Origin: Armatimonadota bacterium | Lineage (GTDB): Bacteria > Armatimonadota > UBA5829 > DTLH01 | DNA: 47,837 nucleotides | Assembly (NCBI GenBank): GCA_029551395.1 | Contig: JAKPFN010000012.1 | Coordinates: 1 to 47,837, forward strand | Reading direction: 5' to 3' | Shown: in pieces, positions 16,320 through 33,699 of the stretch | Position numbering within the stretch: the stretch's first letter is position 1 | How the letters are laid out: each line of letters opens with the position of its first letter | Notes under the pieces: model-generated | Told to the model about the DNA's origin: nothing | The model's input: only the letters and a program-made list of their open reading frames with translations | The model's database searches: none | Translations under genes and position numbers: made by a program

Positions 16320-17438
16320 TTAACCACATGGAAGGTTAGTCGGGCATTCTGTGGGGCCGTTTCGGGATGATTCCGGCATCTCAATCAGCTTTATTGTCAC
16401 TGTTTCCCTCTTTCCATCCCGGACAATTCCCAGGTTCATCGTATCACCAACCTGCTTAGCCCTGAACAGTTTCTGAAAATCAGCACTGTCGTTAATGTTT
16501 TTACCATCAGCCAGGATGATTATATCGCCGCGCTTCAACCCTACTTTGCTGGCCGGACTATTATCAGCAACATCGGCAATAATAATCCCCTGATTGACTG
16601 AAAGAGCAAATGCAGTGGCCAATTCTGGATCAACGTCAGCATAAGATATGCCTAACCAGGGAACAGCTACCCGGCCTTTTGTCAGCACATCTTCTATTAC
16701 ATCCTGCGCTGTATTAATGGGCACAGCAAATCCGAGTCCGCCGCCGCCTTCTCCGGTAATTAACGCTGTATTGATACCTATTACCTTACCTTGAGCATTC
16801 AGAAGCGGACCTCCTGAGTTTCCGGGATTAATCTCTGCATCCGTTTGAATCAGATTAGTTAACGCAGCGCCGCCTCCTGGGATACTCCGCCCGAGTGCAC
16901 TGATCACGCCAACAGTAACAGTCCGCTCAAAACCGTATGGATTGCCGATAGCTACAGCTATTTGACCTACCTGCAGCATATCGGAATCACCAAGAGGAGC
17001 CGCCTGAAGCTTTCCTGCATCTACCTTCAAGATCGCAACATCAACTCGCGGATCGCCGCCAAGATACTTAGCCGGCACTTCACGCCCACTTGCCAGTGTT
17101 ACCGTTATACTCTTTGCTCCCTGCACTACATGGTTGTTAGTCAAAATATAGCCGTCAGTTCGCACTACCAGACCGGAACCTTCCGGGCTGTCCGAATTAT
17201 CTCCTGTCTTGATGCCAACTACCGCTGGACCTACATTCCTTGCAATTTCAACCACAGCACGTTCATTCTCAAGGAGAAGTACTGCAGGACCTGCACCGGT
17301 TCCAGCAGGTGTGCTTGGCCTTACAGTTGTCTGAGTCCTGACATCGATAGTCGCCGTACCGAGTAAAAACCCGGTTAGAAACATCACCATTATCACAACA
17401 CCGGTAGCCGTCCTACCGGATGAACCAATGTAATTCAT
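16320..17438 (-). CDS. HtrA/DegP-type S1C serine protease with one PDZ domain
   Basis: A 372-residue envelope protease. An N-terminal membrane/signal segment (VVIMVMFLTGFLLG) is followed by a trypsin-like domain with all three catalytic elements: LTNNHVVQ (His), DPRVDVAILKVD (Asp) and GNSGGP (Ser). One PDZ domain occupies roughly residues 260-350 (WLGISYADVDPELA, then SPASKVGLKRGDIIIL). It degrades or chaperones misfolded periplasmic or membrane proteins. I start it at ATG 17438, which has GGAGGGGA 7 bases upstream; a TTG six codons earlier is part of that ribosome site. A second HtrA-like gene at 32035 lacks the catalytic His, so this is the only intact HtrA in the window. Confidence 0.92.
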   Translation of the reverse strand: MNYIGSSGRTATGVVIMVMFLTGFLLGTATIDVRTQTTVRPSTPAGTGAGPAVLLLENERAVVEIARNVGPAVVGIKTGDNSDSPEGSGLVVRTDGYILTNNHVVQGAKSITVTLASGREVPAKYLGGDPRVDVAILKVDAGKLQAAPLGDSDMLQVGQIAVAIGNPYGFERTVTVGVISALGRSIPGGGAALTNLIQTDAEINPGNSGGPLLNAQGKVIGINTALITGEGGGGLGFAVPINTAQDVIEDVLTKGRVAVPWLGISYADVDPELATAFALSVNQGIIIADVADNSPASKVGLKRGDIIILADGKNINDSADFQKLFRAKQVGDTMNLGIVRDGKRETVTIKLIEMPESSRNGPTECPTNLPCG

Positions 17439-25621: not shown

Positions 25622-27550
25622 ATGGAGAAAGAGATAGTCGAGGAGATCGACTTATTCGACCCGCTCGATTCGCTTGAGTCGTGGGTCTTAGAAAGCAAGT
25701 TTTTCGTGACATTGAAAGATAAGTTGGCGGCGTTGCCGGCTCGCCCTGGCGTATATTTAATGAAGAATGCCTTGGGTGACGTCATCTACGTCGGCAAGGC
25801 TGTCGTACTTAAAAACAGGGTTAGGTCGTACTTCCAAAAACTAGGTAAGGATGTCTCAAACAAGGTTCGCCGGATGGTCCACGAGGTCGCTGACATCGAG
25901 TGGATTGTAACTGATACCGAACTGGAAGCGCTCATACTCGAATCCAACCTCATCAAGAAATACCGGCCACATTATAACGTGCGTCTCAAGGACGACAAGA
26001 GCTATCCATACATCTGCATCACGCTGAACGAACGGTTCCCAAGGCCCATTTTCCTGAGGAAAATCAAGTTTGAGGGCAAAGACGGCAACCGGTACTTCGG
26101 ACCATACACGGATTCAATGGCAGTCCGGGAGACACTACGGCTCATCCGCCGCGTCTTCGGTGTTCCATGCGGTTACAAAGACCCCAGCCAATCCAAAGGA
26201 AGAGCATGTCTTTATTATCACATCGGCCAATGTCTTGGGCCATGCAACAACTCTATCTCAGAAGAGGAGTATGCCCAGGTTATACGCGATGTCATCCTGT
26301 TCCTTGAAGGCAGGCAGGAAAAGCTGCTGAAAGAACTGCAACACCAGATGGAAGCAGCTTCCGAGAAGCTGCTATTTGAAAAAGCAGCCCGGCTCCGAGA
26401 CCAGATACAGGCAGTCCAGCGGATCATCGAACGGCAGAAGATAATCTCGACTGCAATGGTAGACCAGGACGTAGTTGCCATTGTAACAGATAATGGCAAT
26501 GCAGTTGCGCAGATGTTCTTCATACGCAACGGAAAGCTGATAGGCCAGGAGCACTTCATGCTCGAAGGAACATCTGGTGACGATCTGTCCGAAGGTGTTC
26601 AGGAGTTCGTGAAGCAATACTACCAGGCTGCTGCTTATGTACCAAAGGAAATCCTGCTTCAATGCGAGATAGATGAGCTTGAGATAATCGAGAGTTGGCT
26701 CAGGCAGAAGCGCGGGACCAAAGTAGAGATAAGTCACCCAGTCCGTGGTGAGAAGCGCCAACTTGTGGAAATGGCAGAAACGAATGCTGAAGCCATACTC
26801 GACCAGCTTCGGAAGAAGGTAGAAGCCGATGAAGCGTACATAACAATCGAGCTTGGCGAACTGCAGCAGGCACTTGACCTGCCGAAGCTCCCAAGACGCA
26901 TAGAGTGCTACGATATTTCGAACATCATGGGTACGGAGGCTGTTGGATCGCTGGTTGTATTCGAGAACGGAAGACCAAAAAAGTCCGACTATCGCAGGTT
27001 CAAGATAAAATATACACCAGAACGGCCTGACGACTACGCTATGATGCGCGAAGTGCTTGCTCGCAGGCTCACGGGGCAGCTCAGACAGTCGGAAAAGTTT
27101 GCAGAACTGCCGGACTTGCTCATGGTAGACGGCGGAAAAGGTCAGTTGGGAATAGCAGTTGAGGTTCTGGATGCACTTGGAGAGGATGTTCCGGTTATAG
27201 GACTCGCAAAAGAGTACGAAGAGGTCTTCAAACCGGGTGAAAGTGACCCGAGGCTGCTTCCACGCAACTCCAAAGGGCTTCACGTGCTCCAGCGTATCAG
27301 GGATGAAGCCCACCGGTTCGCCGTCGAGTATCACCGCAAGCTGAGGTCCAAGAGGATGACGCGCTCGATACTCGCAGAAATCCCAGGAATCGGCAAAAAA
27401 CGCCGGAGCGCGCTTCTCAAGCACTTTGGATCGTTAAAACGCATCCGAGAGGCGACAATCGAAGAACTGGAACAGGCTCCCACCATGACCAGACCGGCTG
27501 CAGAGGCAGTTTTTTCATATCTGCAGATGGAAACCTCTGGTAAGAATTAG
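25622..27550 (+). CDS. uvrC: Excinuclease ABC subunit UvrC
   Basis: A 642-residue UvrC, which makes both incisions in nucleotide excision repair. Domains in order: an acidic N-terminal extension of about 30 residues, GIY-YIG nuclease (RPGVYLMKNALGDVIYVGKA), a cysteine-bearing segment (KGRACLYYHIGQCLGPC), the UVR helical hairpin that binds UvrB (EKAARLRDQIQAVQRI), the RNase H-like nuclease (IECYDISNIMGTEAVGSLV), and tandem helix-hairpin-helix motifs (IPGIGKKRRSALLKHFGSL). ATG 25622 is preceded by GGATGGGGA; a TTG at 25610 is the alternative. The long antisense frame across it is a shadow. Confidence 0.95.
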   Translation: MEKEIVEEIDLFDPLDSLESWVLESKFFVTLKDKLAALPARPGVYLMKNALGDVIYVGKAVVLKNRVRSYFQKLGKDVSNKVRRMVHEVADIEWIVTDTELEALILESNLIKKYRPHYNVRLKDDKSYPYICITLNERFPRPIFLRKIKFEGKDGNRYFGPYTDSMAVRETLRLIRRVFGVPCGYKDPSQSKGRACLYYHIGQCLGPCNNSISEEEYAQVIRDVILFLEGRQEKLLKELQHQMEAASEKLLFEKAARLRDQIQAVQRIIERQKIISTAMVDQDVVAIVTDNGNAVAQMFFIRNGKLIGQEHFMLEGTSGDDLSEGVQEFVKQYYQAAAYVPKEILLQCEIDELEIIESWLRQKRGTKVEISHPVRGEKRQLVEMAETNAEAILDQLRKKVEADEAYITIELGELQQALDLPKLPRRIECYDISNIMGTEAVGSLVVFENGRPKKSDYRRFKIKYTPERPDDYAMMREVLARRLTGQLRQSEKFAELPDLLMVDGGKGQLGIAVEVLDALGEDVPVIGLAKEYEEVFKPGESDPRLLPRNSKGLHVLQRIRDEAHRFAVEYHRKLRSKRMTRSILAEIPGIGKKRRSALLKHFGSLKRIREATIEELEQAPTMTRPAAEAVFSYLQMETSGKN

Positions 27551-30435: not shown

Positions 30436-30483
30436 AATCGCCGCTCAGATAACAGACGATTTTCGTTTTCCTGAGCGGCGATT
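30436..30483. terminator. 13-bp perfect inverted repeat after the FKBP gene
   Basis: AATCGCCGCTCAG (30436-30448) and CTGAGCGGCGATT (30471-30483) pair perfectly around a 22-base loop, 35 bases after the stop. Only a weak T-run (ATTTT) follows. It closes the uvrA-to-FKBP gene run before the sigma factor operon. Confidence 0.65.
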
Positions 30484-30623: not shown

Positions 30624-31226
30624 ATGATACCAGGCAGCTTTGCAACAGCAGAAGCGACACGCGCAGTCACTTCAGAAAACAAGTTAATATCGGCTGCACA
30701 ACTCGGTGATCAGGATGCATTTGGCGTTTTATTCGAGCAGTACAAGGATGTCATCTATGGCTTTGTGCTGAAAACAATCGATTCTAAAGATGACGCCGAG
30801 GATATTGTGCAGGAGACTTTCTGCAGGGCATGGAACTCTATTGGAAGATTCCGAGGTGACAGCAAGCTTTTGACATGGCTCTGCCGAATAGCGACTAATT
30901 TATGCATGGATTATATGAGATCGCCCCGCAGAAAAGTGCCAACAGCAACTGAACTGGATCTGGACACTGAAAATACCTGTTGTTTTTCGCTTCAATCTGA
31001 GAGCGCTGAAGACGGGAGTATCACTAAACATTTGATAAAAGATGCTTTGGAAAAACTGCCACCCAGCCATAAAATGCTGGTGATACTCTGTGATGTTCAG
31101 GGATTTACCTGCGAAGAGGCTTCAAGAGTGCTCAAATGCTCTTCGATAAGTGCGAGGGTAAGGCTGAGCCGAGCCAGGAAAACGCTTCGCAAGCTGCTGT
31201 CCCCCGCATTGGAAGGGGTGGAATAA
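30624..31226 (+). CDS. ECF-family RNA polymerase sigma factor
   Basis: A 200-residue sigma-70 family member with only regions 2 and 4. Region 2: DAFGVLFEQYKDVIYGFVLK and DAEDIVQETFCRAWNSIGRF (core binding and -10 recognition). Region 4: ALEKLPPSHKMLVILCDVQG followed by a helix-turn-helix (FTCEEASRVLKCSSISARVRLSRAR). The first 20 residues are an extension. It directs transcription of a stress or envelope regulon when its anti-sigma partner, 2 bases downstream, is inactivated. A consensus TTGACA at 30571-30576 lies upstream, but no good -10 follows at 16-18 bases. Likely autoregulated, as is usual for such pairs. Confidence 0.93.
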   Translation: MIPGSFATAEATRAVTSENKLISAAQLGDQDAFGVLFEQYKDVIYGFVLKTIDSKDDAEDIVQETFCRAWNSIGRFRGDSKLLTWLCRIATNLCMDYMRSPRRKVPTATELDLDTENTCCFSLQSESAEDGSITKHLIKDALEKLPPSHKMLVILCDVQGFTCEEASRVLKCSSISARVRLSRARKTLRKLLSPALEGVE

Positions 31227-31228
31227 AA

Positions 31229-32056
31229 ATGGGAGTGCGATGTTACCTAGTTAAAAAATGGCTTGAAACGGCTCCACCGGATCAGCAGGACTATCCGGTA
31301 ACGGTCACCCGTCACCTTGCTGACTGCGAACACTGCAGGGCTGAAGCTGCCAGTTACCAGCGTTTACAGGCAGTCCTGCGAGAAAACCTTGAGGTTAGCG
31401 AGAAATGTCAGGTGAGCTGGGACCAGGTGTGTGCAAGAATGACAGCCATTCCAGCCAAACCAGCCGGAATCAGGCTCAAGCTTGTTCCCGTTGCTGCAGC
31501 AGCCGTTTGCCTGCTCATTTTCTGCCTTATTGGTTCTATAATACTAAACTCTAATAATGCTCAATCGACTAACGACCAGATAGTGAAACATCAGACTGAT
31601 GTTGAGGTAAGACCATCGCTTCAACCGGAGACCGGACTTATTGATAAGGTAGAGGCAACTGCTAACGCAAAGCAGGAAGAAAATAATGACCTTATTCAAA
31701 CTAATTCGATAGATAAACAGCCAAAAAACCTTACCGTCCTGAATGTGGTTAAGCCAGTAAATAACAATAGAAAACCTAATCGGACTGATAAAACAATCAT
31801 AGTAAATAACGCTGCAGATCCAGGTTCTGGTCAACCACCGATTAAAAATGATGAGATAGCTAGCATAAATGTGATACCTCCACAGCCTGACCCGGATCTG
31901 CAGCCAGTATCAACTGATGACCAGAAGGTGGCGATAGTCACGCCGACTGAACATGCTATTGGTGTTGTTGGAGTGGATATGGACGTCCAAAACGACCATA
32001 ACACATACGCAATTCATAGAGTAAACGGCACTACATGCGCATATCTAGATTTATAG
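31229..32056 (+). CDS. Zinc-finger anti-sigma factor, single-pass membrane protein
   Basis: A 275-residue protein whose N-terminal domain holds the zinc-binding anti-sigma motif TRHLADCEHCRAEAASY (H-x3-C-x2-C). One membrane helix (about residues 88-110, PVAAAAVCLLIFCLIGSIIL) follows, then a long extracytoplasmic domain rich in Asn, Gln, Pro and Lys that looks disordered (about residues 115-275). It should bind the sigma factor at the membrane until a signal releases it. ATG 31229, two bases after the sigma stop and preceded by GGAAGGGGTGG, is chosen over the longer open frame inside the sigma gene. It overlaps or abuts the pseudo-HtrA gene, which may sense or transmit the envelope signal. Confidence 0.85.
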   Translation: MGVRCYLVKKWLETAPPDQQDYPVTVTRHLADCEHCRAEAASYQRLQAVLRENLEVSEKCQVSWDQVCARMTAIPAKPAGIRLKLVPVAAAAVCLLIFCLIGSIILNSNNAQSTNDQIVKHQTDVEVRPSLQPETGLIDKVEATANAKQEENNDLIQTNSIDKQPKNLTVLNVVKPVNNNRKPNRTDKTIIVNNAADPGSGQPPIKNDEIASINVIPPQPDPDLQPVSTDDQKVAIVTPTEHAIGVVGVDMDVQNDHNTYAIHRVNGTTCAYLDL

Positions 32057-33579
32057 AAATGGCGATACGACAAATGAAACTTTACAGATATCTAATCGTT
32101 CTAGCAATAATAACGCTCATTGCCATAGCCCCAGGCGCCTACGGTGTATCGACCTTGCAGGAGCTAAGCGATGATATGAGTAAGCTCGTAAGCTTGGCAA
32201 GCCCGGCTGTTGTCGAAATCCGGGCAGATAAGGGCTCTAAATCACTGGCAGGAAGCTTTGGAACCGGTGCAGGACGGACAAAGGATATTTCTACTGCGGT
32301 GTATCCTGTGGCAACGATCGGTTCAGGTTTTGTGTTCGATGAAGCAGGTTACATCCTCACTACCGGCAACATTGTCAATGGTGCCGTAGATATTACGGTG
32401 AGATTTGCAGATGGAAGCATATCTGATGCCGAGTTGCTTGGAATAGATCCTGCTACTGATCTGGCAGTTATCAAGATTGATAAAAAGGGTCTGACAGCCC
32501 TTCAATTTGGTGATTCTGACACTCTCCAGCCTGGATCACTGGTAGTGCAGATAAACAACCAGGTTGGACTTACCAACTCAGCATCGCTCGGGATGATCTC
32601 GGGTGTTAACCGCTCTGTGGGAGGAGGCGGTACCGATATGATCCAGATTTCCGGAACGATCGGTCCGGGGGCCAGCGGGGGCCCGGTGCTCGATCCATCC
32701 GGCAAGGTCGTCGGTGTCTCGGCTGCGATGTTCTCGCCTTCTCCCACGGCACTGCCATTTAACGCTCCAACAATAGTGATATCTCCCGGCGATGATCCAC
32801 GAATGCTGCAGATGGAGATTGAAAGAATCCTGGAAAATATATTTTCTGGTGTAAATCAAGACCCTGATGTCAAGCTGCCGAATGTTGCTGATCCTTCACA
32901 AGACGATATCGAAAGAATAATCAATTCAATGTCCAGTCGGATAGAAATCGAACGGATTTCCGGTAGTGCTGGATTTGCTATACCTATCAACAGAGTCATA
33001 CCTGTTCTTGAAGATCTAAAGAGAGGAAAAGTAGTTAAGCGGGCATGGCTGGGCGTTTCAGTCGCTATGAGTCCATTCGGGATTTTACTCCAACCAGCAG
33101 AAAATGGTCCTGCAGCTAGAGCTGGAATCAAACCTGGTGATATTCTCATCGCAGTTGATAATTATCCTATCTACTCTGCTGCTGATGTCCCTTCTCTGAT
33201 ACTTGATAAGAAGCCAGGTGAAGTTATCAAGCTGAAAGTTAGGCGAGAAGACAAGGAAATTGATGTAAATGTACAGCTTGAAGAGCGGACTGCAATCGGA
33301 CCAATGCAGGAGAAGATATCCATGATCGGAATCAGAAAGTCGAATGATCCTTCGGCTGCTACTGAGATTGATATGCGTGACGCTGATATTTATCAAATTG
33401 CCAACGCCCTATCTGAGGTATTCAATAAAGAAGTAACTGTCTCTGATCAATTCAGCCCTGGTCAAAACATCACTATGCAAATCTCCGCAAAGACTGTTGA
33501 AGAAGCACTTGATGCAGTTTGTGCTGCCTTGCATTGTAAGTATAAGAAGGACGGTGATGTCTATACAATTACACCTTAA
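32035..33579 (+). CDS. HtrA-like protein lacking the catalytic His, with PDZ and C-terminal STN-like domain
   Basis: A 514-residue exported protein; signal helix about residues 15-37 (YRYLIVLAIITLIAIAPGAYG-like). The trypsin-like domain keeps Asp142 (DPATDLAVIKID) and Ser214 (GASGGPVLD), but the His position is Asn112 (ILTTGNIVNG where active HtrA has ILTNNHVV). Residues about 232-300 are an insertion containing a helical, acidic segment. A PDZ domain follows (about 340-425; PAARAGIKPGDILIAVD). Residues about 440-514 resemble the STN/secretin N-terminal fold (DIYQIANALSEVFNKEVTV, then AVCAALHCKYKKDGDVYTI). Probably a binding or sensing protein instead of a protease. It belongs to the sigma/anti-sigma operon. 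Starts 32059 and 32074 are also possible; no clear ribosome site decides. Confidence 0.85.
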   Translation: MRISRFIEMAIRQMKLYRYLIVLAIITLIAIAPGAYGVSTLQELSDDMSKLVSLASPAVVEIRADKGSKSLAGSFGTGAGRTKDISTAVYPVATIGSGFVFDEAGYILTTGNIVNGAVDITVRFADGSISDAELLGIDPATDLAVIKIDKKGLTALQFGDSDTLQPGSLVVQINNQVGLTNSASLGMISGVNRSVGGGGTDMIQISGTIGPGASGGPVLDPSGKVVGVSAAMFSPSPTALPFNAPTIVISPGDDPRMLQMEIERILENIFSGVNQDPDVKLPNVADPSQDDIERIINSMSSRIEIERISGSAGFAIPINRVIPVLEDLKRGKVVKRAWLGVSVAMSPFGILLQPAENGPAARAGIKPGDILIAVDNYPIYSAADVPSLILDKKPGEVIKLKVRREDKEIDVNVQLEERTAIGPMQEKISMIGIRKSNDPSAATEIDMRDADIYQIANALSEVFNKEVTVSDQFSPGQNITMQISAKTVEEALDAVCAALHCKYKKDGDVYTITP

Positions 33580-33634: not shown

Positions 33635-33678
33635 GAGTTGCTTCCCAGCCCCCTTCCCTCTCCCCAGGGAAGCAACTC
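33635..33678 (+). terminator. 12-bp hairpin after the sigma operon
   Basis: GAGTTGCTTCCC (33635-33646) and GGGAAGCAACTC (33667-33678) are exact inverted repeats around a C-rich 20-base loop, 55 bases after the pseudo-HtrA stop. No T-tract follows, so termination efficiency is uncertain. Confidence 0.55.
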
Positions 33679-33699
33679 CATTATATCTGGCATTTTAAT

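Follow-up and report, generated by a model that had tools for sequence, protein, structure and literature searches.

The window analysed here is a stretch of 47,837 nucleotides (contig JAKPFN010000012.1 of assembly GCA_029551395.1, from a bacterium of the phylum Armatimonadota), in which positions 30624-33579 of the plus strand encode an ECF sigma factor, a membrane anti-sigma factor and an HtrA-like protein, in that order and in the reading frames given by the original prediction. The sigma factor (30624..31226, 200 aa) comprises sigma regions 2 and 4 only (Pfam Sigma70_r2, E = 2.4e-18; Sigma70_r4_2, E = 1.2e-10) and adjoins a gene whose product (31229..32056, 275 aa) has one transmembrane segment and a zinc-type HxxxCxxC motif, the features expected of an ECF sigma/anti-sigma pair. 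The open reading frame of the anti-sigma factor spans 31136-32056, with a likely start at 31229, and the chain, which has a low-complexity ectodomain, ends in the peptide TYAIHRVNGTTCAYLDL (32003-32053). Its match to NCBIfam antisigma is below the cut-off (E = 2.4e-8), and Pfam zf-HC2 was not reached in the Pfam scan, with the HxxxCxxC motif being present; the protein is homologous to the anti-sigma factors of other ECF operons in the phylum. The third gene (32074..33579), a putative HtrA-like pseudoprotease with a PDZ and an STN domain, lies in a frame that is open from 32035, the start at 32074 being the likeliest. The unit is flanked on the plus strand by a hairpin between an FKBP gene and the sigma factor gene (30437..30482, -25 kcal/mol, z = -7.4), marking its 5' boundary, and by another after the HtrA-like gene (33635..33679, -20.2 kcal/mol, z = -5.3), marking its 3' boundary; the latter has no T run and hence is not a classical intrinsic terminator. 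A promoter and simple terminator scan of the window gave nothing better than shuffled sequences, and all Rfam matches within the window were far below the gathering scores. Elsewhere on the minus strand, the window encodes a second HtrA, with an intact triad (16386-17294, L001), and contains a 350-codon open frame antisense to a UvrC-like gene (26372-27424), which is probably an effect of base composition. An M50 protease of RseP size is encoded in the same genome.

The HtrA-like protein contains a trypsin-like domain (residues about 91-236, 32305..32742; Trypsin_2, E = 4.8e-26, and PDB alignments), and its full-length AlphaFold2 model (pLDDT 75.5) matches DegP, DegQ, AlgW, DegS and MucD. The catalytic Asp (Asp142, codon GAT, 32458..32460) and the residue at the nucleophile position (Ser214, codon AGC, 32674..32676) are retained, whereas the position of the catalytic His is occupied by Asn112 (codon AAC, 32368..32370), so that the fold and the PDZ domain of an active HtrA are present and the His-Asp-Ser triad is not. 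In the phmmer comparison with PDB, Asn112 stands opposite the catalytic His with zero shift ('GYILTTGNIV' vs. 'GYILTNNHVV' of a DegP-like chain), with GYILTTGNIVNGA aligned on GYILTNNHVVADA, and the DegP-like, MucD and AlgW chains all align without shift; a shifted alignment that would restore the His is ruled out by both the PDB and the family alignments. An insertion of about 70 residues in the region of loop L2 (32743..32964), evident as a gap in the PDB alignments and modelled with low pLDDT in parts, separates the Ser motif from 'GFAIP': residues 236 to 311-313 of the query face 4-6 residues in AlgW, MucD and the DegP-like chain. The insertions of the related proteins described below are shorter and variable in length. 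The insertion is followed by a PDZ domain (33040..33279; PDZ_2, E = 1.1e-14) in which the carboxylate-binding loop W-L-G-V (338-341) is intact. The three active-site positions, the missing His, the 70-residue insertion after the Ser motif and the PDZ domain had all been read correctly from the sequence in the original prediction, which also proposed a C-terminal STN-like domain.

That domain is borne out by several comparisons. Residues 444-514 (33364..33576) match Pfam FecR_C just above the cut-off (24.8 vs. 24.4 bits), with Pfam STN itself below its cut-off (E = 0.018), and an alignment of the C-terminal 70 residues reveals a pattern shared with the STN domains of secretin-like proteins of the phylum. 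The AlphaFold2 model of the domain alone (pLDDT 87) has its best Foldseek matches in FecR-type anti-sigma structures (4m0n and 4m0h; TM 0.72-0.73, rmsd 1.6-1.7 Å), followed by PilQ N0 and, further down, by the PupR anti-sigma domain 6ovk. Operons consisting of a sigma factor, an anti-sigma factor and an exported STN-domain protein recur in the phylum (L044, L045, L066 and L177), where the third protein carries one to three STN copies and, at L066, a zinc ribbon; the window protein thus amounts to a pseudo-HtrA joined to the STN module that is seen in such operons.

Although no full-length ortholog of the window protein was found in 60 relatives, anti-sigma and HtrA matches adjoin each other in several of them. 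We built a family profile from five proteins, then from 24, and searched it against 291 genomes of the phylum, in which the family members (E of about 5e-79 or lower) are separated by a gap from ordinary HtrAs (from about 1e-75). The search identified 45 pseudo-HtrAs in 41 genomes, which fall into four families: f8 is present in 10 genomes, f11 in 15, of which three have two copies, f32 in 15, of which one has two copies, and the fourth is that of the window. An ECF sigma factor is encoded two genes upstream in 41 of the 45 cases, and the remaining 4 genes lie at contig ends. None of the 45 proteins has His at the catalytic position, which is occupied by Asp (24), Glu (19), Asn (1, the window copy) or Ser (1); the Asp position holds Asn (29), Gly (15) or Asp (1, again the window copy), and the Ser position Ser (31), Pro (10), Gln (3) or Asn (1). 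By comparison, the 34 HtrAs of the phylum used as references, among them several encoded in the genome of the window, keep His-Asp-Ser without exception, and a His missing from 45/45 related proteins and present in 34/34 references is more than chance would produce. In a tree calculated after removal of the catalytic columns, the 45 proteins form one clade (branch support 100/99), within which the window copy, being on a long branch, is placed without an exact position. It is the least decayed member, with only the His of the triad gone. The trypsin and PDZ domains are recognisable in all 24 members scanned, and the carboxylate-binding loop is retained in every member with sequence there. The window protein shares with the others its clade, an acid or amide at the His position and its place as the third gene after an ECF sigma factor and an anti-sigma factor. 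On these alignments and this gene order, its membership in a conserved family of HtrA pseudoproteases that is linked to such operons is close to certain, and the loss of the His is, as judged from the same data, a conserved feature rather than an accident. The STN domain, by contrast, was found in the window copy and in none of the 23 other members scanned. The suggestion that an envelope sensor had been made from a dead protease consequently holds in part: retention of a dead protease as a regulator in the envelope is well supported by a His loss that is fixed in a monophyletic, ECF-linked family, but the STN domain, present in 1/24 members, is not the family's general means of passing the signal.

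Several features of individual families were noted. Three f11 genomes each have two paralogous pseudo-HtrA operons (L091/L152, L092/L150 and L093/L151), which belong to different sub-clades and have different anti-sigma ends (Tyr and Trp). In the f8 operons, the pseudo-HtrA gene is followed by a fourth gene that weakly matches AhpC/TSA (thioredoxin fold), as at L080:2637-3092 and at the equivalent position of other f8 loci. Upstream of the f8 sigma factor, about 85 bases are near-identical in all 10 species (L061:821-916, L062:821-916 and 8 more loci) and fold as a single long hairpin (-43.6 kcal/mol, z = -3.0); the element is present as a single copy in the four genomes searched, has no Rfam match and displays no covariation because there is no variation, and it is possibly an RNA leader or a regulatory site.

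A second ECF arrangement in the phylum consists of a sigma factor, a zf-HC2-type anti-sigma factor of ~176 aa and an intact DegP-like protein of ~485 aa (L011, L017, L021, L028, L029, L183, L184 and L191, and probably L003, in the window's own genome), the anti-sigma factors of which frequently have an F[VA]S-like peptide and then Arg at their C-terminus. Derivation of the pseudo-HtrA operons from a duplicated operon of this kind is not supported, the sigma factors of the active-HtrA operons forming a separate clade in a sigma tree whose deep nodes are unresolved. The sister of the window sigma factor (L060, from the same order) belongs to an operon without any HtrA: at this locus (L158:2486-4586), which holds the closest sigma/anti-sigma relative, the third gene encodes a 233-aa exported protein with no Pfam match, a difference from the window which indicates that the third gene is exchangeable. 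At a further locus (L063:1-2429), the sigma and anti-sigma genes are followed by a gene for a PDZ protein without the usual protease match.

The ectodomains of the anti-sigma factors are variable and of low complexity, and most of their conservation falls within the final 20-30 residues: here a Y[VI][IM]-like motif and the residues at the very end are shared by the members of each family. In f32 and in clade B of f11, the final codons of the anti-sigma gene run into the start of the gene behind it (e.g., GCA TGG TAA holds ATGG), so that the C-terminal conservation is partly forced by the HtrA start; the Y[VI][IM]-like motif, 15-30 residues before the end, lies outside the overlap. Only clade A of f11, with a terminal Tyr specified by both synonymous codons, and f8, with a Val/Ile-Glu end, are largely free of overlap, and the f8 anti-sigmas end in Glu, not in a hydrophobic residue, an unusual terminus among PDZ ligands of this class. 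Aromatic C-termini occur in 31/42 anti-sigmas of the family vs. 1/17 controls (p = 1.5e-6, the rows not being independent) and in 3/28 same-genome controls; among the first 17 controls, the anti-sigma of L063 is the only one with a terminal Phe. The statistic lends weak support, given that an overlapping ATGG start largely dictates the terminal Trp of f11 clade B, that f32 is affected by overlap and that the rows are non-independent. The anti-sigma factors of the active-HtrA operons also have recognisable C-terminal peptides, so that such peptides are not special to dead HtrAs. Sensing of unfolded C-termini by the PDZ domain is compatible with the retained carboxylate-binding loop, the C-terminus of the anti-sigma factor being another candidate ligand.

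Taken together, these findings suggest that the dead HtrA may regulate, from within the periplasm, the anti-sigma factor encoded in the same operon, acting through docking and shielding and displaced by misfolded C-termini, a reading to which we assign a probability of about 0.45. Regulation of the anti-sigma factor as such is likely, and the route through PDZ docking and shielding is our hypothesis for how it would operate. The pseudo-HtrA would dock on the anti-sigma ectodomain, most likely on the conserved C-terminal peptide, and, while docked, would shield it from site-1 proteolysis, in the way that RseB binding prevents DegS from cutting RseA (PMC8103513) and that the FoxA signalling domain protects FoxR from proteolysis, a contact for which the FoxR STN domain is required (PMC11637429). 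The PDZ domain could instead bind the exposed C-termini of misfolded envelope proteins, displacing the pseudo-HtrA, after which an active protease would cut the freed anti-sigma factor, the RseP-like M50 protease would make the next cut and the sigma factor would be released. In the window copy, the added STN domain, whose fold makes contacts in FecR/PupR/FoxR signalling and in secretins, may provide a further contact. A regulatory role is favoured by the loss of the His in 45/45 members vs. 0/34 references, by the single clade with an ECF sigma factor upstream in 41/45 cases, by the preserved trypsin fold and PDZ loop, by the C-terminal conservation of the anti-sigmas and the presence of an M50 protease, and by an STN fold nearest to FecR-type anti-sigmas together with the STN proteins that occupy the third-gene slot elsewhere. 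Against it, a gene transcribed together with the sigma factor may simply be one of its targets, and the window sigma factor is sister to one from an operon without an HtrA; the docking step is further weakened by the overlap-forced C-termini of f32 and f11 clade B, the Glu ends of f8 and the peptides in active-HtrA operons. The broader proposition, that in ECF systems across the phylum an HtrA became a dead sensor whose PDZ domain holds and protects the C-terminus of its cognate anti-sigma, with similar misfolded C-termini competing for the groove, is more speculative, and we regard it as rather doubtful.

The doubt about co-transcription is shared by the explanation in which the protein is an effector and not a sensor, that is, a sigma-controlled periplasmic chaperone derived from an HtrA, binding unfolded proteins through its PDZ domain and dead active site and leaving the anti-sigma factor untouched. 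Protease-dead DegP provides a model for an HtrA-derived chaperone, the Ser and the cleft are retained in many members, and co-transcription is no proof of regulation; HtrA genes are, moreover, classical targets of envelope sigma factors (PMC8103513). However, the gene is tied to the sigma and anti-sigma genes in all members with enough flanking sequence, and the anti-sigma ectodomain carries a conserved C-terminal peptide; we consider a pure effector possible, if somewhat unlikely. The many intact HtrAs of the window genome and its relatives allow for a different role, in which the pseudoprotease joins or activates an active HtrA, in mixed trimers or by allostery, and steers it toward the anti-sigma factor, much as MamO promotes MamE-dependent proteolysis (PMC4794232), but with no dedicated active partner seen in the operon, this is clearly less probable still.

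Retained protease activity of the window protein, with a different base assisting Ser214, is very improbable: Ser214 and Asp142 are both present in this copy, but across the family the His is lost in 45/45, the Asp in 44/45 and the Ser in 14/45 members, and the S1 motif TDAxINPGNSGG is altered to ISGTIGPGASGG. We give even less credence to Asn112 as a sequencing or assembly error, or as the mark of a decaying gene in one genome, since the 514-codon frame is open, the neighbouring motifs have changed too and the clade's 44 other members also lack the His, even though AAC is one base from a His codon and the draft genome is in 165 contigs.

The reading as a regulator can be set against several known systems, and no published description of such a pseudo-HtrA family was found in our searches of open-access papers. 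In the RpoE and AlgU systems, DegS and AlgW are active site-1 proteases that cut the anti-sigma factor. Like the window protein, they have one trypsin-like and one PDZ domain and are tied to a membrane anti-sigma and an ECF sigma factor, whereas the window protein lacks the catalytic His and is encoded within the sigma operon itself; with its triad broken, it would not be expected to be a sensor protease of the DegS type, active and cutting the anti-sigma. The Pseudomonas operon, with the order algU-mucA-mucB-mucC-mucD, likewise unites a sigma factor, an anti-sigma factor and an HtrA-type gene, and the proposed shielding resembles that by RseB/MucB; MucD, however, is an active HtrA, and in the window operon, which has no RseB homolog, the shield would be the HtrA fold. 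The closest known case is MamO, an HtrA protease domain without catalysis that has been retained for other work, in cells with both dead and live HtrAs, as here (PMC4794232). In MamO, the His and Asp are kept and Thr replaces the Ser; the protein also has a TauE transporter domain, binds metal and functions in biomineralisation (PMC4794232). The window protein, by contrast, has lost the His, has a PDZ domain (plus the STN domain of this copy) and is encoded in an ECF sigma operon; the Pfam scan found no TauE transporter domain in it, and NCBIfam MamO scored 44 bits against a cut-off of 800. FecR, PupR and FoxR likewise belong to ECF systems, and they share with the window protein an STN domain that ends a periplasmic chain, as described for PupR, where it is at the extreme C-terminus (PMC7186176); in those systems, contact can protect the anti-sigma factor from proteolysis (PMC11637429). 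There, however, the STN domain is on the anti-sigma factor and its partner is a TonB-dependent transducer, whereas in the window it is fused to the dead HtrA, with no STN-type Pfam match in the anti-sigma factor and no TonB receptor among the neighbouring open reading frames examined, an arrangement that differs from FecR/PupR cell-surface signalling.

HtrAs in envelope-stress signalling are understood as proteases, exemplified by DegS and AlgW. A clade that keeps the operon, the fold and the PDZ groove together with a fixed loss of the His indicates that there is value in retaining the non-catalytic part by itself, and it opens to experiment the question of whether a sigma factor can be controlled by PDZ sensing when the sensor does not cut. 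Leads for bench work are offered by the acidic residue that 43/45 members have at the His position, by the ECF operons of this phylum that contain an active HtrA and by the STN fusion. If the broader proposition of a dead sensor is correct, the signal would be conveyed by competition for the PDZ groove, not by cutting, and the window copy would add an STN contact, as in the parallel STN operons.
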